DNA from: Clostridia bacterium
GTDB taxonomy: Bacteria; Bacillota; Clostridia; Lutisporales; Lutisporaceae
DNA: 64,000 bases
Reading direction: 5' to 3'
Assembly: GCA_035628995.1 (NCBI GenBank)
Contig: DASPIR010000023.1
Coordinates: 186,001-250,000 of the forward strand
Part shown: piece after piece, positions 36,497 through 43,090 of the stretch
Numbering within the stretch: the first letter of the stretch is position 1
Layout: every line of letters starts with the position of its first letter
Program-made: the position numbers and the translations under genes
Notes under the pieces: model-generated
What the model saw: the letters and a program-made list of their open reading frames with translations, nothing else
Databases searched by the model: none
Told to the model about the DNA's origin: nothing

Positions 36497-37315
36497 TTAT
36501 TTTTCAGCTTTAATATATGCTCCCGCATATGCACCATCTAGTAATTCCAAGACATCTCCAACCTCAATTTCAAGCAAATAATTTTTCTGCTGCAAAATTT
36601 CTAATATAACTTCCTTTGTATATACATGAACAGGTTTTATCTCAATGTGTTTAAAGCCAACCTTTTCAAGTATAGTTTTGTACTCATCGGTACTTAAAGC
36701 ACCCGCTATACAGCCTACCCAGAGTTCAGCCATATTTTTGATATCCTTCGGAACATCCTTTAGGACTATAATATCAGAAATTGCTAGTCTTCCGCCTTTC
36801 TTTATAACTCTATAAGCCTCAGACAAAGCTTTCTCCTTGTCATCAGACAGGTTTATTACACAATTGGAGATTACTGCATCTACTGTATATTCATCCAGTG
36901 GAATATCTTCAATATAGCCCTTGATGAACTCAACATTTTCCACTCCCATTCTCTTTTTATTCTTATTGGCTAATTCCAGCATTTCATCAGTCATATCCAG
37001 GCCATATATCTTACCCGTGCTGCCTACATATCTGGTTGCCAATAGAACATCTATCCCCCCGCCGCTTCCAAGGTCCAGTACAGTCTCTCCCTCTTTTAAC
37101 TGTGCAAGAAGCAGCGGATTTGCGCAACCTAAAGATGCATTTACAGCTTCTATCGGTAAATTCTCAAGATTTTCACCTTTATAAATGATTGAATCGTCAC
37201 TAATGCTGTTGCAGCAGGATGAACCTCCACAACAGCTGCTCTTTGATTCCCTATTAACCTTTTTTGCAATTCCTCCATAGTATGACTTCACTTTTTGCTT
37301 CACATCAGAATTCAT
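36497..37315 (-). CDS. arsM: Arsenite S-adenosylmethionine methyltransferase ArsM
   Basis: 272 residues. The SAM fold has 'VLDLGSGGGIDVLLA' (about 79-93). Arsenic-binding cysteines fit ArsM: 'CCGGSSCC' at 28-35, Cys64 in 'LGCANP', Cys152 in 'SNCVINLS', Cys202 in 'VGCIAGA'. It methylates As(III) to volatile or less retained species. ATG 37315 has AAAGGAG 9 nt upstream; an upstream in-frame start overlaps marR and has no RBS. It lies 14 bp after the Cys-rich MarR gene, its probable regulator, at the distal end of the arsenic island. Confidence 0.95.
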   Translation of the reverse strand: MNSDVKQKVKSYYGGIAKKVNRESKSSCCGGSSCCNSISDDSIIYKGENLENLPIEAVNASLGCANPLLLAQLKEGETVLDLGSGGGIDVLLATRYVGSTGKIYGLDMTDEMLELANKNKKRMGVENVEFIKGYIEDIPLDEYTVDAVISNCVINLSDDKEKALSEAYRVIKKGGRLAISDIIVLKDVPKDIKNMAELWVGCIAGALSTDEYKTILEKVGFKHIEIKPVHVYTKEVILEILQQKNYLLEIEVGDVLELLDGAYAGAYIKAEK

Positions 37316-37329
37316 TGTCTTACTCCTTT

Positions 37330-37773
37330 CTAACAACACTTATTATTTTTCATTGCATCAAGCAATAACGTAAGACTCTCAACTACCTGAGTATGCTTCT
37401 CTTCCGGAATATCCTTCAACAATGACATATAGTACATATCCATATTCTTTTCAATAGCTTTGTAAATACGCAGCCCCTTTTCAGTCAGCTTCAATTTCAC
37501 ATAACGTCTGTCTTCTGTATCGATTTCTCTCAGGACAAGCTGCTGCTCAACTAAATTATTAATGGTTCTGCTCATAGTGCTATTATCTAAATTCAATAAT
37601 TCAGCCAGTTCATTAAGTGAAATCTCTTGTGCTCTAGCAATCTCAGTTATTGCATAGCATTGTCCTATCGTAGTCCCACAGCAGGAAGCTTCAGCTTTAT
37701 CAAGGAAACTCATATTTCTGATCAGCTGTCTTGCAAGCTCTCGTAGTTCACTAATATAATCTTTTTTATCCAA
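37330..37773 (-). CDS. MarR-family regulator with cysteine clusters, probable metalloid sensor
   Basis: 147 residues starting at a TTG (RBS AGAGGTGG, 6 nt). The winged helix is plain: 'SLNELAELLNLDNSTMSRTINNLVEQQLVLREIDTEDRRYVKLKLTEKG' spans about 54-102. Unlike most MarR proteins it has Cys31-Cys32 and Cys39 in the first helices ('ASCCGTTIGQC') and ends in Cys146-Cys147. These could bind As(III) or Sb(III). It precedes arsM in one unit. A palindrome overlapping its -35 (37811-37823) is a fitting autoregulatory operator. Direct metalloid sensing is inferred. Confidence 0.85.
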   Translation of the reverse strand: MDKKDYISELRELARQLIRNMSFLDKAEASCCGTTIGQCYAITEIARAQEISLNELAELLNLDNSTMSRTINNLVEQQLVLREIDTEDRRYVKLKLTEKGLRIYKAIEKNMDMYYMSLLKDIPEEKHTQVVESLTLLLDAMKNNKCC

Positions 37774-37787
37774 TGTTAACCACCTCT

Positions 37788-37823
37788 TTTATAATTGTAA
37801 CATACAATACTTGCAATATGCAA
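37788..37823 (-). promoter_or_regulatory. marR-arsM promoter and palindromic operator
   Basis: Minus strand TTGCAA (37811-37816), 17-bp spacer, TATAAA (37788-37793). The palindrome TTGCAATATGCAA (37811-37823) covers the -35. Confidence 0.65.
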
Positions 37824-37835
37824 CTAATAGTTTTT

Positions 37836-37872
37836 AATAATAGACTAATATTTATATTACTAGTCTATTATT
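37836..37872. repeat. 12-bp inverted repeat after the selenoprotein gene
   Basis: AATAATAGACTA and TAGTCTATTATT with 13-nt spacer, 5 bp past the stop of the CC/Se gene. Possibly a weak terminator separating it from marR-arsM. Confidence 0.5.
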
Positions 37873-37876
37873 TATT

Positions 37877-38161
37877 CTATTCTAAAACCTCAAGTCTGAA
37901 TTTGCCATAACCTTCCACATAAAAATCAAGAAAATTTTCTTTTAATTCACTTTCCAAAACGTCTTTTGCAATATAAAAAGTAATATCGTTTATGGAAAAT
38001 GCTTCAAAGCACTCGGTGCTTTCAGGTATGCCCATCAATCCAGATGGTGCTTCATAAGCCACTCATCAGCCATGTATAGTGATTCTTATGGTTACATTCA
38101 TAGCGGCTCCCCTTTGCTTCACATAGTCATAAAGCCAAGGAGATACTGAGGCTTTTCGCAT
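37877..38161 (-). CDS. CC/Se-motif selenoprotein with two adjacent UGA codons (predicted Sec32-Sec33)
   Basis: Read through UGA, the frame runs 94 residues from ATG 38161 (AGGGGG, 8 nt upstream) to TAA at 37877. The order is a start region 'SVSPWLYDYVKQRG', a strand 'NVTIRITIHG', two consecutive TGA codons (38066-38068 and 38063-38065), 'VAYEAPSGLMGIPES', 'INDITFYIAKDVL' and 'YGKFRLEVLE'. This is the layout of the small clostridial CC/Se family, where a Cys-Cys or Cys/Sec pair follows a Gly. A conventional caller would start at the GTG at 38062 and report 61 residues. A hairpin 15 nt after the UGAs is SECIS-like. It lies 23 bp after the phosphoesterase in the arsenic island. Function unknown; metalloid or thiol chemistry is a guess. 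Confidence 0.72.
38032..38047 (-). promoter_or_regulatory. Candidate bacterial SECIS hairpin
   Basis: On the minus strand CCATC-TGGATT-GATGG, beginning 15 nt after the second UGA, with GG in the apical loop. This is the position and loop feature expected for SelB recognition. The stem is short (5 bp). Confidence 0.5.
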
Positions 38162-38184: not shown

Positions 38185-38898
38185 TTAAGCCTTTCCGGTT
38201 CTTATAATGTTTGCAAACTCATGCGGCAGTCCCATTTCTTCTATCGCTTTTGCAGTATTTTCGTATTCGTAATCCACTTCATATATTTCAACCTTTGCGT
38301 TCTCTCCAAATAAATCAAGTACCACATAGTTGGCCTTTGGAGTCCCTGTCTTTGGCTTGCCTGCACTGCCAGCATTCACAAGCATCTTATCACCGTACAT
38401 TTTGTAATATGGCTTATGTGTATGTCCGCAGACCAGTATATCGGCTTCAAAAGCACTCATTACCTCTTCGGCTTCAGTTGAATTCTCTTTGAGATATTCA
38501 TTTATCTTTCTTGGACTGCCATGAACGAACTTTATTGTCTTGACTTCAAAACTCATATCCACTTCCATTGGTAAGTTTCTCAAAAACTCTTTGTTATCTT
38601 CTCTCGTTTCGTCTATAGTCCAATTTAATGATAACCCTGCGTTTTCTGCATCCTTTTGATCAGGATAATCACAGCCGCAGACCATAAGCTCTTCTCCAAC
38701 TGCTTCATCGTAGTTTCCCTTAATTGTCAATATTCTGTTTTCACGGATAGTGTCTATAACCTCATTTGGATATGTTGCATAGCCCACCAGGTCACCCAAA
38801 CATAAAATTAAATCCACATTTTTATTGTCTATATCCAAGAGCACTTCGTTAAGGGCAAATATATTGCTGTGTATGTCCGCGATTACTGCTATTCTCAT
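38185..38898 (-). CDS. Calcineurin-like metallophosphoesterase
   Basis: 237 residues. Metal-binding motifs in order: 'ADIHSNIFAL' (D-x-H), 'LGDLVGY' (GD), 'IKGNYDE' (GN), 'FVHGSPR' and 'VCGHTHKP' (GHTH). This is the YfcE/MJ0936-like small phosphodiesterase group. It sits between acr3 (17 bp upstream) and the predicted selenoprotein, all co-directional, so it belongs to the arsenic operon. Why a phosphoesterase accompanies arsenite export is unknown; hydrolysis of arsenylated or phosphorylated by-products is one possibility. Confidence 0.92.
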   Translation of the reverse strand: MRIAVIADIHSNIFALNEVLLDIDNKNVDLILCLGDLVGYATYPNEVIDTIRENRILTIKGNYDEAVGEELMVCGCDYPDQKDAENAGLSLNWTIDETREDNKEFLRNLPMEVDMSFEVKTIKFVHGSPRKINEYLKENSTEAEEVMSAFEADILVCGHTHKPYYKMYGDKMLVNAGSAGKPKTGTPKANYVVLDLFGENAKVEIYEVDYEYENTAKAIEEMGLPHEFANIIRTGKA

Positions 38899-38915
38899 AG
38901 GTTTCTCCTTTGTTA

Positions 38916-39983
38916 TTAATTCTCAGTAAACCAATGTTTAGTATTATTTGCTATCCTTACCAGTGCTAACATAACTGGAACTTCAACAAGAACACCCACA
39001 ACGGTAGCTAATGCTGCACCTGATTCAAGCCCGAAAAGCGAAATGGCGACTGCCACCGCAAGTTCAAAAAAATTGCTGGCACCTATCATTCCAGCTGGAG
39101 CTGCTATATCATGCTTAAGCTTCCACGCCCTTGCCCACCCGTAGGACAGGAAGAATATAAAGAATGTCTGTATTGTCAGCGGTACAGCTATGAGAGCTAT
39201 GTGAAGCGGATTGTTCAAGATAATTTTCCCTTGAAAAGAAAAAACTATAACCAATGTGAGCAGTAGGCCTATTACTGTGATATTATCAAACTTCTTTAAA
39301 AACACATTGTTGAAATAATCCAAGCCCTTGCCCTTTATTACATATTTCCTGGTAAAGTATCCCCCTGCAAGTGGAATAACAACGAACAGAATCGTTGCTA
39401 TAATCAATGTATCATAAGGTACTACTACCTTGCTCACTCCCAGAAGGAATGCAACTATAGGCGTAAATGCAACTAGTATTATTAAGTCGTTGACTGCTAC
39501 TTGCACCAAGGTGTAAGCCGGGTCTCCATTTGTAAGATGACTCCATACAAACACCATAGCGGTACAAGGAGCTGCGCCCAATAATACTGCTCCAGCCAGA
39601 TATTCCTTGGCTAAATCAGCAGGGATCAGATTCTTGAATACCACATAGAAGAAAAAAGAGGCAATTGCATACATTGTGAATGGTTTAATAAGCCAATTGG
39701 TAACACAAGTAACTATTAAGCCTTTGGGCTTTTTAGTTGCATTTACTATGCTTGAAAAGTCTATCTTAAGCATCATAGGATAAATCATCAGCCATATGAG
39801 TATTGCTACAGGTATTGATACATTGGCATATTCAAATTTACTAAGCGTTTGCGGTACTTTGGGAAGCATCTGGCCTAGAATAACCCCGGCTGCTATACAT
39901 ATTGCCACCCATACCGTAAGGTACTTTGCAAAGAAACCTAGTGCGTTATTATCACTATTTTTGTTATCTTTAGTATTGCGCAT
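38916..39983 (-). CDS. acr3: Arsenite efflux permease ACR3
   Basis: 355 residues, about ten membrane spans, ACR3 family rather than ArsB. It has 'LIWLMIYPMMLKIDFSSI', the essential Cys in 'LGAAPCTAMVFVWSHLTNGDPAYTL', and 'GMIGASNFFELAVAVAISLFG' near the C-terminus. It exports As(OH)3, probably energised by the ArsA ATPase encoded in the same run. RBS AGGGGAG. It lies after the rhodanese-like gene, 68 bp apart, and before the phosphoesterase. Confidence 0.96.
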   Translation of the reverse strand: MRNTKDNKNSDNNALGFFAKYLTVWVAICIAAGVILGQMLPKVPQTLSKFEYANVSIPVAILIWLMIYPMMLKIDFSSIVNATKKPKGLIVTCVTNWLIKPFTMYAIASFFFYVVFKNLIPADLAKEYLAGAVLLGAAPCTAMVFVWSHLTNGDPAYTLVQVAVNDLIILVAFTPIVAFLLGVSKVVVPYDTLIIATILFVVIPLAGGYFTRKYVIKGKGLDYFNNVFLKKFDNITVIGLLLTLVIVFSFQGKIILNNPLHIALIAVPLTIQTFFIFFLSYGWARAWKLKHDIAAPAGMIGASNFFELAVAVAISLFGLESGAALATVVGVLVEVPVMLALVRIANNTKHWFTEN

Positions 39984-40051
39984 TAATTACTCCCCTTATT
40001 ATTATTAAAATATAGTATAGCTTCATTTTTTATTAAATTAATTTTTTTATT

Positions 40052-40462
40052 CTATTTTGGTGAGACTGATGAGCCCTCCATTCGTATTTTTTGAGGCTGA
40101 AGTCTGCAGGCACAACCCCCTATCATCTCATAATCTAAGTCCTTGGCAAGTGGCAATCCAGCATGGTCCCATGCCACGACCCCTCCAGCAAGACATGCAA
40201 CCTCTGAATAACCATGTTCCACAAGGGATAGGGCAAATTCTTTGCTTTGATTACCAACACTATCTGCAACTATTAATAAATTATTCCTAGGTAAATTATC
40301 TATTATCTCGTTATTAGAGTCGCCAGAGAGATAAATTACTCTGGGAACATCAAATACGCGTAAATCAGTTTCATACGCAGGACGAATATCTACAATAATG
40401 GCACCGGCATTTATGTATTCAAATACTTCTCGTGGAGTAAATGAAACTATTTGAGGATTCAT
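40052..40462 (-). CDS. Rhodanese-like protein lacking the catalytic cysteine
   Basis: 136 residues. Rhodanese fold: 'SFTPREVFEYINAGAIIVDIRPAYE' and 'YSEVACLAGGVVAWDHAGLPLA'. The active-site loop reads 'IVADSVGNQSKEFA' where active enzymes have a Cys (pattern CxxGxRS), so sulfur transfer through the usual persulfide is unlikely. It keeps a Cys in 'VACLAGG' and a C-terminal 'GGCACRLQ' that could bind a metal or As(III). ATG 40462 is 7 nt from AGAGGT. It lies between arsA and acr3, separated from arsA by a strong hairpin. A binding or chaperone role is my inference. Confidence 0.8.
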   Translation of the reverse strand: MNPQIVSFTPREVFEYINAGAIIVDIRPAYETDLRVFDVPRVIYLSGDSNNEIIDNLPRNNLLIVADSVGNQSKEFALSLVEHGYSEVACLAGGVVAWDHAGLPLAKDLDYEMIGGCACRLQPQKIRMEGSSVSPK

Positions 40463-40508
40463 AATCATGACCTCTACCTTCATTAATTAAATTATTGTTA
40501 TATTGGAA

Positions 40509-40547
40509 ATTCCACTACAAAGCGTCTCTAGTTCTTTGTAGTGGAAT
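40509..40547. repeat. 14-bp perfect hairpin between arsA and the rhodanese-like gene
   Basis: ATTCCACTACAAAG/CTTTGTAGTGGAAT. No clear T-run on the minus strand; it may attenuate or stabilise the operon transcript. Confidence 0.65.
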
Positions 40548-40553
40548 CAGACT

Positions 40554-42314
40554 TTATCTTATCAATTCGATGAGCTTCTCGCCCTTTACCTCTTCGGGCA
40601 TCCACTCTATCACTGCAAAATTACCCTTTGATATTTCATTCACTTTGTTAATCCACTGCACTTCATTACTTGCCTTTACTTTTAGAATAGCATTGGTTGT
40701 ATTAGCTGCGTAGAAGCTTGAATTAATGACCCACCACTTACTGTGGATGCCTGCTCTATTCAGGTCACTTTGCAATCTCAAAGCTTCATAGACCGGAGTA
40801 GTTTCTGCAAGTGTTACAATAATTACTTCTGCTTCCTCTTCGTTCTTTAATTTAGGTAAAAGCTTCTTAACTGACTCTGGAATATCTCCCTGAGAACGCT
40901 GAATTTCTTTATGATACCTTTGAGTAGAATCCAAGAGCAGCAATGTATGTCCAGTCGGCGCAGTATCAATAACTACAACTTCATTATCTGAGCTATCCAC
41001 TATTTCCGCAAAAGCTCTAAATACTGCAATTTCTTGGGTGCAAGGAGATCTTAAATCTTCTTCAACATAAGCCAGATCATCACCGCTCATTGTTTCTCTT
41101 GCTTTGCTTAATACTTCTTCCTTATACCTCTCAAGCTCTTCTTTTTCATCAATACTGCTCAAAGTTACACCATAACTTTCATCTAGTACAAACTTTAAAT
41201 GCGCTGCCGGGTCAGTCGTTGTCAAATGCACTTTTTTTCCCTTCTCAGCTAAACCTAGAGCAATGGCAGCAGCTATCGTAGTTTTGCCAACACCACCCTT
41301 ACCCATTGTGAATATTACTTTCTTACCGCTATTATATAAATCGTCAATTACAGTTTTTAGTTTAGGTATATTCTCTGTATTTAGTGTTTCATTGTTATAT
41401 TTTACGTTGTTATCCTTTAAAAAGGCTCTTATATTTTCCAAGCCTGTTATATTATATGGTCTTAGAGGTATTTTATAGGTTTCAATTAATTTGAGTGCTT
41501 CAGGCATATCATTCAATGCATTCTGCTGTTTTTCGTAAATAGCATCTGAAAGAAAGTCATCATGTATCTCAAGCACACCGTTAATAATTAAAACTTGATT
41601 ATTTACTCCTATATCCTGAAGCTCTTTAGATGCTCTTTCGGCTTCTTTCAGCGGTGATGGCTCAGGACGTGAAACAAGTATAAGGGTTGTTTTCTCTTCG
41701 TCAGCTAAATTGTCGACTGCGTTTTTATACACTTCCCTTTTGCTTTCAAGTCCTGAAAGCTGCCCAAGGCATGACGCGCCGTGTGTGTTTTCACTTATAA
41801 AATTGCTCCAGGCTGAAGGAAGCTGCAGCATTCTCAAGGTATGCCCTGTTGGTGCAGTATCAAATATAATATGGTTATACTCCGTTGCTGCTTTCTCATC
41901 CGTTATGAAGTTTGAGAATTCATTAAATGCAGCTATCTCAACTGTGCATGAACCAGAGAGCTGTTCCTCCATGTTTTTCAATACTGCATCCGGCAGTTTG
42001 CCGCGATAGGGTGCTATTACACCTTCCCTATACTCAGCAGCAGCCTCCACCGGATCAAAGTTTGCAACTGTTAAATTAGGAACTCCTTTTATGGGAACTC
42101 CCTTGTTATCCAGGGAGGTGTTAAAAACATCCTGAAGGTTGGACGCGGGATCGGTGCTGATCAGCATTATCTTCTTGCCTTTGTCAGCTAAGGCTACTGC
42201 CGTAGCACATGCTGCAGAGGTCTTGCCGACTCCTCCCTTCCCTGTAAAAAACAAATACTTTGTTAAGTTAAACTCTGATATATTATAATCTTTGATCAAT
42301 CCTTGATCCCTCAT
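40554..42314 (-). CDS. arsA: Arsenite-stimulated pump ATPase ArsA
   Basis: 586 residues with two homologous halves. Each half has a deviant Walker A ('FTGKGGVGKTSAACATA' near 20 and 'TMGKGGVGKTTIAAAIA' near 335) and the transduction motif 'DTAPTGHTLR/L'. Metal-site cysteines appear as 'GSCTVEIAAF' and 'SPCTQEIAVF', plus 'ASCLGQL'. This is full-length bacterial ArsA, which energises arsenite export through the membrane permease. It begins 9 bp after arsD with a poor RBS, so it is probably translationally coupled. Confidence 0.97.
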   Translation of the reverse strand: MRDQGLIKDYNISEFNLTKYLFFTGKGGVGKTSAACATAVALADKGKKIMLISTDPASNLQDVFNTSLDNKGVPIKGVPNLTVANFDPVEAAAEYREGVIAPYRGKLPDAVLKNMEEQLSGSCTVEIAAFNEFSNFITDEKAATEYNHIIFDTAPTGHTLRMLQLPSAWSNFISENTHGASCLGQLSGLESKREVYKNAVDNLADEEKTTLILVSRPEPSPLKEAERASKELQDIGVNNQVLIINGVLEIHDDFLSDAIYEKQQNALNDMPEALKLIETYKIPLRPYNITGLENIRAFLKDNNVKYNNETLNTENIPKLKTVIDDLYNSGKKVIFTMGKGGVGKTTIAAAIALGLAEKGKKVHLTTTDPAAHLKFVLDESYGVTLSSIDEKEELERYKEEVLSKARETMSGDDLAYVEEDLRSPCTQEIAVFRAFAEIVDSSDNEVVVIDTAPTGHTLLLLDSTQRYHKEIQRSQGDIPESVKKLLPKLKNEEEAEVIIVTLAETTPVYEALRLQSDLNRAGIHSKWWVINSSFYAANTTNAILKVKASNEVQWINKVNEISKGNFAVIEWMPEEVKGEKLIELIR

Positions 42315-42323
42315 TTCTTATTT

Positions 42324-42689
42324 TCAGCCACAACTGCTGCCACATCCCTTAGCTGTTCTTGCAACAGTACCCTTTAAGTATTTTTCAGTAACTCCTAAAA
42401 ACTTGCAAATCTCTTCATTAGTTGGATAAGCTTTGGTTTTAACCACAGTACCATCAACCATTGAGACTGGAAGTACTTCTATTCCATTATTAATTAGCAT
42501 TCTATTTATTTCTTTGCTATCAATAAAAATTTGTGGATTACTAGATAGGTTATACCTTTCAACTAGTATACCGTTGTTCTTAAGGTTGTTTATCACTGTT
42601 GAAATTCTCAACAACTCAGGGTCCACGGATGGTCCGCATACACCAGTAGAACAGCACATTGCTGGTTCGAATATTACCATTCTTTTCAT
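42324..42689 (-). CDS. arsD: Arsenic metallochaperone ArsD
   Basis: 121 residues beginning at ATG 42689 (RBS AAAGGAGGTG). Cys12, Cys13 and Cys18 ('AMCCSTGVC') are exactly at the metalloid-binding positions of ArsD. The thioredoxin-like fold follows. The C-terminus has 'GCGSSCG', a further Cys pair as in the E. coli plasmid protein. It passes As(III) to ArsA, which is encoded directly downstream. Upstream in-frame starts would overlap arsR and lack an RBS. Confidence 0.96.
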   Translation of the reverse strand: MKRMVIFEPAMCCSTGVCGPSVDPELLRISTVINNLKNNGILVERYNLSSNPQIFIDSKEINRMLINNGIEVLPVSMVDGTVVKTKAYPTNEEICKFLGVTEKYLKGTVARTAKGCGSSCG

Positions 42690-42702
42690 ATTTACACCTC
42701 CT

Positions 42703-43026
42703 TTACTTACACTCACATTTAGATTTATCTTTACAAATACATTCATCCGTATCTGTTATAAGATTCATAAGAAATAGAATAAGTTTATTGCAGTTGGAAC
42801 TATCTAGAGAATAATAACTCCAGAGGCCTTCTTTTCTGCATTCCACAATACCACAGTCCATTAACACCTTCATATGATGCGAAAGTGTTGGCTGCGTAAA
42901 ATCGAAATGCTCTAATATATTACAGGCACATCTTTCCCCACAGGATAAGATGTCTATTATTTTAAGCCTGTTGGGATCTGAAAAGGCTTTAATAATTTTT
43001 GCATTATCATCATAGTTCTGAATCAT
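42703..43026 (-). CDS. arsR: ArsR/SmtB arsenic-responsive repressor
   Basis: 107 residues from ATG 43026 (GAGGTG). The winged helix has 'FSDPNRLKIIDILSCGERCACNILEHFDFTQPTLSHHMKVLMDCGIVECRKEG'. The As(III) site is Cys33-x-Cys35 in the helix before the recognition helix (an 'ERCACNI' variant of ELCVCDL), with Cys29 as a likely third ligand. An extra Cys-rich tail ('CICKDKSKCECK') ends the protein. First gene of the main arsenic operon. A palindrome near the transcription start is the probable operator. Confidence 0.96.
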   Translation of the reverse strand: MIQNYDDNAKIIKAFSDPNRLKIIDILSCGERCACNILEHFDFTQPTLSHHMKVLMDCGIVECRKEGLWSYYSLDSSNCNKLILFLMNLITDTDECICKDKSKCECK

Positions 43027-43041
43027 TAAATCACCTCGTAC

Positions 43042-43090
43042 ATAGATATGCATCTATATATAATATACAACAAGATTAAAACAACGTCAA
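43042..43090 (-). promoter_or_regulatory. ars operon promoter and ArsR-type palindrome
   Basis: Minus strand TTGACG (43085-43090), 17-bp spacer, TATATT (43062-43067). The palindrome ATAGATATGCATCTAT (43042-43057) covers the expected start site. Confidence 0.65.

Follow-up and report, generated by a model that had tools for sequence, protein, structure and literature searches.

We consider it likely that the MarR-type protein encoded at positions 37330–37773 (minus strand) of the 64,000-nucleotide stretch analysed here, hereafter the window, is an autoregulating repressor of marR-arsM which is relieved by arsenic through its cysteines. It belongs to a family of Cys-Cys MarR proteins with a sharp boundary. 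A MarR dimer would bind two TTGYANNNTRCAA palindromes lying 16 bp apart over its own marR-arsM promoter; As(III) or methylarsenite would be taken up by the cysteines, upon which the repressor would leave the DNA and ArsM would be made. The arsenic site would most likely be a Cys31-Cys32-Cys39 cluster, aided by a C-terminal cysteine pair, and in the wider family such regulators stand before arsM, organoarsenical genes (ArsP-type permease, arsN1) and hgcAB in many clostridial-type genomes. The gene, its cysteines, the palindromes, their conservation in the family and the linked genes are observed; repression, the binding of a dimer, arsenic as the ligand and the identity of the binding cysteines are what we infer, and the reading of the protein as a sensor appears well supported by comparison with its relatives. 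To our knowledge, the known bacterial arsenic repressors are of the ArsR/SmtB kind. Should the account be correct, a MarR-fold arsenic sensor would represent a second solution beside ArsR/SmtB, with a defined DNA site.

The protein comprises 147 residues, starts from a TTG codon preceded by AGGTGG, and is placed within MarR by Pfam (43.8 bits with PF01047, cut-off 24.6; 40.0 bits with PF12802, cut-off 27). Its best NCBIfam match is the BilQ equivalog, with which it shares the MarR fold, but at 58.2 bits it lies below the cut-off of 125. The ArsR/SmtB model HTH_metalloreg gives 21.3 bits against a cut-off of 55, and the protein is therefore not a member of that group; outside ArsR/SmtB by domain score, it may yet function like an ArsR/SmtB member. 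The likeness to those repressors lies in a regulator that heads an arsenic operon, in the proposed As(III) cysteine cluster and in palindromes over the promoter, whereas the difference lies in the MarR fold and in the location of the cysteines, which in ArsR form an ERCAC-type CxC and in the window protein are situated in the α1-α2 region and the C-terminal tail. They are Cys31, Cys32, Cys39, Cys146 and Cys147, exactly where the sequence-only reading had placed them in the MarR protein upstream of arsM. The AlphaFold2 model (mean pLDDT 85.5, pTM 0.77) has a MarR fold with Cys31-Cys32 in the α1-α2 loop, Cys39 in the first turn of α2, and Cys146-Cys147 in the C-terminal tail past the final helix; confidence is lowest in the Cys31-Cys32 loop and the tail (block means 58, 72 and 71). 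Foldseek listed 50 matches with TM scores (query) of 0.52–0.69 and high rmsd (2.8–9.8), and the 50 listed appear to be MarR-type proteins; the solved MarR-type chains that were found reach at most 51.7 bits against the family profile. The N- and C-terminal helices of known MarR dimers are packed against each other, and for this reason the C-terminal pair could approach the vicinal cysteines of the partner subunit.

The marR stop is separated by 14 nt from the ATG at 37315 of arsM (36497–37315, minus strand), an arsenite S-adenosylmethionine methyltransferase gene by NCBIfam NF008823 (307 bits, cut-off 263). The longest arsM frame listed begins at a GTG at 37339, and the ATG at 37315, with AAAGGAG in front of it, is the likelier start. 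Upstream of marR and on the same strand, a gene for a classical ArsR/SmtB protein with CxC (arsR, 42703–43053; ERCAC; HTH_metalloreg 92.4 bits, cut-off 55) heads the export genes arsD, arsA, a rhodanese-like gene, acr3 and a metallophosphoesterase (phosphodiesterase) gene, found at 38185–42746 by NCBIfam and Pfam. The suggestion that the island carries two regulators has held, with a CxC ArsR before the export genes and a MarR with its own promoter, and comparison supports well the view of the latter as a predicted second arsenic-type regulator beside classical ArsR; separate thresholds for export and methylation, proposed along with it, would be conjectural. The assignment of the MarR protein to methylation fares less well: it does have its own promoter before arsM, but its relatives also front PF03773 permeases, arsN1 and hgcAB, and "methylation only" is therefore too narrow as a rule for the family.

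Two exact copies of the generalised motif TTGYANNNTRCAA are present in the 64 kb window, and both are found at the marR promoter. The first, a putative distal operator TTGCAATATGCAA (37811–37823) whose counterparts in relatives lie at about -50 from the start, is the palindrome described previously, while the second, a putative proximal operator TTGTAACATACAA (37795–37807) 16 bp from the distal one, was absent from the earlier description. With one mismatch allowed the window has 16 matches against a chance mean of 14.6, and the pair is taken as more than chance because it is conserved across the Cys-Cys MarR family. The promoter-like elements of marR are TTGCAT and TACAAT separated by 18 nt; TTGCAT (minus strand, 37823–37818) lies inside the distal palindrome, and the end of the proximal palindrome overlaps the -10-like TACAAT (minus strand, 37799–37794). 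The palindrome which the sequence-only reading had set over the -35 is real and correctly positioned, but TTGCAT makes a poor -35 (3 of 6 letters match the consensus), and a consensus promoter scan of the window did not report TTGCAT-18 nt-TACAAT. Given that the sites lie over both promoter elements, autorepression relieved by arsenic would be the most economical account of the arrangement.

Elsewhere in the genome from which the window derives, no second pair of exact TTGYANNNTRCAA sites close together was found. In all, the exact motif occurs 38 times in that genome, compared with 8 occurrences of the reversed pattern used as a control. A wider regulon was considered and rejected: apart from the pair at marR there are 36 sites, 34 of which were inspected; 27 of these lie inside open frames of at least 80 codons and 7 outside, and the stretches fetched around the 34 contained no reference arsenic or hgc gene. 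The genome encodes a single Cys-Cys MarR family member, its four further MarR matches being distant (E of 2e-6 or weaker).

Relatives of the protein were drawn from four sources, namely one-genome-per-species contigs (19 loci, 17 of them in the family), 398 genomes from the same phylum as the window (53 of which gave a match at E 1e-25), 22 genomes of the window's family (6 matches, including its own genome) and plasmids (16 records, 6 fetched), such that beyond the phylum the search covered close relatives among the species contigs and plasmids. Plasmid-borne relatives were found in Priestia, Niallia, Paenibacillus and Deinococcus. Two loci below the family threshold (L018, L019) and one with a broken gene (L017) were excluded, and duplicates were identified by their final 120 residues and discarded, a treatment under which near copies remain; this left 79 loci besides the window. 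The alignment likewise has 79 rows, as one incomplete sequence (L016) was left out and the window protein added. The N-terminal Cys-Cys is kept in 78 of these rows, Cys39 in 61, the C-terminal pair in 66 and some C-terminal cysteine in 74, while the remaining columns of the window protein have cysteine in at most 6% of the rows. Had the cysteines not been conserved in arsM-linked homologues the arsenic-sensor proposal was to fall; among the 43 arsM-linked proteins, window included, the N-terminal pair is present in every one, Cys39 in 39 and the C-terminal pair in 38. In five permease-linked members (L102, L105, L108, L117, L125) the N-terminal pair lies nearer the protein start (CCVDE, CCIDE or CCLDE) and the C-terminal pair is kept. 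The one family sequence that does not have the N-terminal pair (L013, about 55% identical) keeps Cys39 and is also devoid of the C-terminal pair; no palindrome within one mismatch and no arsenic or hgcA reference gene was found near it, and in our reading of its surroundings it seems to precede a histidine kinase and a response regulator.

One might suppose that a cysteine-rich profile merely finds cysteines, and this ascertainment bias was rejected, as the sharp edge of the family persists with a profile in which every Cys was changed to Ala. Against that profile the window protein, with its N-terminal pair, scores 204.6 bits. When it was run on the same 398 genomes and 20 hits not previously in the set were taken in rank order, all 6 above 95 bits had the Cys-Cys pair, 5 had the exact palindrome and 3 had arsM nearby; none of the 14 below 90 bits had the pair, one had the exact palindrome, and none was near a reference gene. 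An exception, well under the edge and of another MarR type, is a hit of 45 bits in L203, which does have a CC pair. This second, more distant type, with ECCGDLS, shares a stretch with family members in L203 and L017.

The palindrome is widespread in the family as well. An unbiased count of palindromes with 5-nt arms and 0–8 nt between them, made over the 160 nt upstream of 81 start regions, was topped by TTGTA-N3-TACAA (21 regions) and TTGCA-N3-TGCAA (18), as compared with at most 4 for any palindrome in 20 shuffles. Exact TTGYANNNTRCAA sites occur in 55 of 80 promoters (window included) versus a mean of 0.17 and a maximum of 2 in 200 shuffles, and sites with at most one mismatch occur in 66 of 80 versus a shuffle mean of 4.0; 25 promoters have no exact palindrome, and 14 have none even at one mismatch. 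By linked gene, the exact palindrome is present before arsM in 33 of 43 cases, before permeases in 8 of 9, before hgcA in 4 of 8, before arsN1 in 3 of 6 and before arsA in 0 of 1, with 7 of 13 for loci without a recognised linked gene. In 36 of the 80 promoters a pair of sites, neither with more than one mismatch, is spaced at exactly 16 bp; at any other spacing from 10 to 20 there are none, at 21 there are 5 pairs and at 26 there is 1. This 16-bp pair characterises 29 of 43 arsM-linked promoters, as opposed to 1 of 8 linked to hgcA and 0 of 9 linked to permeases. TTGYAN-18 nt-TACAAT was found in 38 of 80 family promoters where 0.02 were expected, and is plausibly their -35/-10 pair.

Linkage was scored by the nearest reference gene that could be recognised on the same strand up to 700 bp downstream. 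Among the 79 loci this gene is arsM-like in 42, a permease in 9, hgcA in 8, arsN1 in 6 and arsA-like in 1, with none recognised in 13, so that an arsenic-type gene follows in 58 of 79 and an arsenic or hgcA gene in 66. Within the 42 arsM-like genes, L014 has a distant methyltransferase, L070 and L078 have fragments, and five (L104, L106, L109, L110, L111) are ArsM-like while falling below the curated arsM cut-off or having no entry among its matches. The 5 linked permeases scanned (of 9) were all PF03773 ArsP_1, and a sixth (L108) hits the SaoE model with a score under its cut-off; the NCBIfam equivalog cut-offs were passed by the HgcA (3), HgcB (2) and ArsN1 (1) proteins tested, and hgcA is incomplete in 2 of its 8 loci (L012 at a contig end, L087 covering part of the model). 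Viewed in reverse, of the 78 arsM genes that pass the cut-off, 30 are preceded on their own strand, at no more than 1 kb, by a family member.

These linkages bear upon the nature of the ligand. A narrower version of the main account would have methylarsenite bound and not As(III), with arsM controlled by its own product; we hold this to be rather unlikely, although its odds overlap those of the main account. ArsP-type permeases and arsN1 handle organoarsenicals, both are linked to the family, two-thiol sites suit methylarsenite, and Cys39 is indeed rarer before permeases (3 of 9) and arsN1 (3 of 6) than before arsM. Yet the contrast is tied to ancestry, with 2 independent pairs on supported branches, and the window protein does have Cys39, as expected for three-thiol binding of As(III). 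Cys39 as a marker that separates As(III) from methylarsenite was for this reason set aside, the counts being suggestive and the independent pairs 2 in number.

The association with hgcA was followed through a larger set of genes. In the 398 genomes, 30 hgcA genes lie above cut-off (including that of the window's own genome) and 6 of them come immediately after a Cys-Cys MarR gene. Within one class, hgcA is present in 26 of 97 genomes, both searches having been run over this one set; upstream of it are a Cys-Cys MarR in 15, a CxC ArsR in 5 and neither in 6. For all 51 distinct hgcA loci, roughly 1.5 kb of upstream sequence was inspected, or less where the contig ended sooner; 17 had a Cys-Cys MarR, 15 an ArsR-like gene (13 of these with CxC; the one in L126 is non-adjacent) and 19 neither, and these loci are not independent since many of the genomes are related. 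The 17 hgcA-linked MarR proteins all keep the N-terminal pair and 15 keep Cys39, while the C-terminal pair is absent or a single cysteine in 5 of the 11 newly found; because CC and Cys39 are kept better than the C-terminal pair, this points to CC-Cys39 as the core site. Their palindrome is exact in 12, has one mismatch in 3 and two mismatches in 2, the last being chance level. A quick tree requires 4 changes of the hgcA label, with its starred branches calling for at least 3; repeated recruitment by hgcA was nevertheless rejected as a claim, given that AU tests do not reject a single clade, with p 0.093 at 8 rows and p 0.705, 0.428 and 0.49 in three smaller sets. In one locus (L083, genome G108) MarR, hgcA and hgcB are followed within about 5 kb on the same strand by arsA, arsR and acr3 matches, and in two others (L127 in G003, L128 in G155) hgcA comes directly after what we read as acr3 and arsC-type genes, with no regulator between. 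The window's genome has hgcA with an adjoining hgcB match (G000:C25:4951-5937; loci L151 and L240) and is by virtue of these a predicted mercury methylator. Upstream of its hgcAB the search found no Cys-Cys MarR and no ArsR, and the genome accordingly combines an arsM gene under predicted Cys-Cys MarR control with an hgcAB that has no such regulator.

We regard as tentative, at somewhat under an even chance, the broader proposal that one cysteine-MarR family controls both arsM and hgcAB through the same palindrome. If so, trivalent arsenic, or else a thiophilic metal(loid) signal shared by the two systems, would induce hgcAB, and the natural role of HgcAB would be tied to arsenic or metalloid defence and be accessible via one repressor. 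The function and control of hgcAB are described as open in the portion of PMC10349881 available to us. The same portion, citing earlier work, reports that hgcAB is under the control of an arsenic-responsive, ArsR-like regulator in Pseudodesulfovibrio mercurii ND132; this regulator would resemble ours in being of arsenic type and differs in its ArsR fold, the MarR fold being upstream of hgcA in 17 of the 51 loci here. A second type of arsenic-like regulator at hgcAB strengthens the arsenic link. Arsenic genes near hgcAB are noted in the excerpted text of PMC7438021, as is a "putative transcriptional regulator" upstream of hgcAB in 112 genomes, which that text does not term MarR. In the literature searched, as far as the available sections extend, a single sentence places a MarR upstream of hgcA, in Dethiobacter alkaliphilus and Geobacter daltonii (PMC10349881), and it speaks of neither cysteines nor an arsM link. 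An arsenic-sensing Cys-Cys MarR was not encountered in the accessible parts of the literature on arsM, organoarsenicals and hgcAB, and the available sections of PMC8060452, PMC8649762, PMC6947025, PMC11653729, PMC10349881, PMC7438021 and PMC7862947 contain no description of a Cys-Cys MarR family. The mechanism of arsP activation in Paraclostridium bifermentans EML is given as unknown in the sections of PMC11653729 available to us, and a Cys-Cys MarR is a candidate explanation for it.

The link to hgcA also speaks for another thiophilic metal (Hg(II), Sb(III), Zn(II), Cd/Pb) as the ligand, the arsenic genes being co-regulated passengers, which we find improbable. The 17 of 51 hgcA loci with the same kind of regulator favour it, but in the main set 58 of 79 loci are of arsenic type as opposed to 8 with hgcA, a partial argument as mer and other metal-resistance genes are outside the reference set. 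AdcR is a zinc-sensing MarR protein; its structure (3tgn) aligns over the same region of the window protein, and like AdcR/ZitR the latter would be a metal sensor of MarR fold with ligands in the same part of the protein. The AdcR/ZitR model NF038251, however, gives 25.3 bits against a cut-off of 175, and AdcR and ZitR bind zinc mostly through His and Glu ligands.

Likewise improbable, in our estimation, is a redox switch in which the vicinal cysteines are oxidised to a disulfide or mixed disulfide in the manner of OhrR or MexR and arsenic acts indirectly via oxidative stress: thiol-redox MarR regulators are known (oxidised MexR, 3mex, is among the fold matches), cysteine pairs can form disulfides, and the plasmid relatives are in genera taken as largely aerobic, but 66 of 79 loci carry a recognised arsenic gene or hgcA downstream (peroxidase genes being outside the reference set) and the OhrR-type model NF052638 (OhrRVib) gives 24.9 bits against a cut-off of 200. 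OhrR and MexR do resemble the window protein as cysteine-controlled MarR repressors of detoxification genes; they are not known to have a vicinal pair together with a C-terminal pair, and their target genes are others.

Several features of individual loci deserve mention in their own right. In Ruminiclostridium hungatei (L015) the member keeps CC and Cys39, has no palindrome within one mismatch, and by our reading seems to precede moeA- and mobB-like genes, while two members (L068, L206) have no recognised neighbour gene. In L014 and L079 the regulator appears, again by our reading, to be followed by a phosphoenolpyruvate-mutase-like protein, with a small methyltransferase between the two genes in L014. 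Two Priestia plasmids (L062, L063) carry a Cys-Cys MarR and an ArsP_1 permease divergent from a radical SAM cluster, annotated with genes for an RCCLKC-tail radical SAM protein, an ATP-grasp protein and a carboxymuconolactone decarboxylase, which could be an organoarsenical biosynthesis cluster.

Within the window, the metallophosphoesterase gene (38185–38898, minus strand) adjoins acr3, and the ars operon of P. bifermentans EML, arsM-acr3-MPPE-arsR1, includes a partner named MPPE in the available part of PMC11653729. Just upstream of the marR promoter lies a 15-bp A+T-rich hairpin (37836–37872), possibly the end of the upstream operon, which was not picked up by a terminator scan requiring G-C pairs. 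A 61-codon open reading frame (37877–38062, minus strand) that has no family match also lies between the phosphodiesterase gene and marR, and a similar sequence precedes marR in L121 and L122, from two genomes belonging to the same family.
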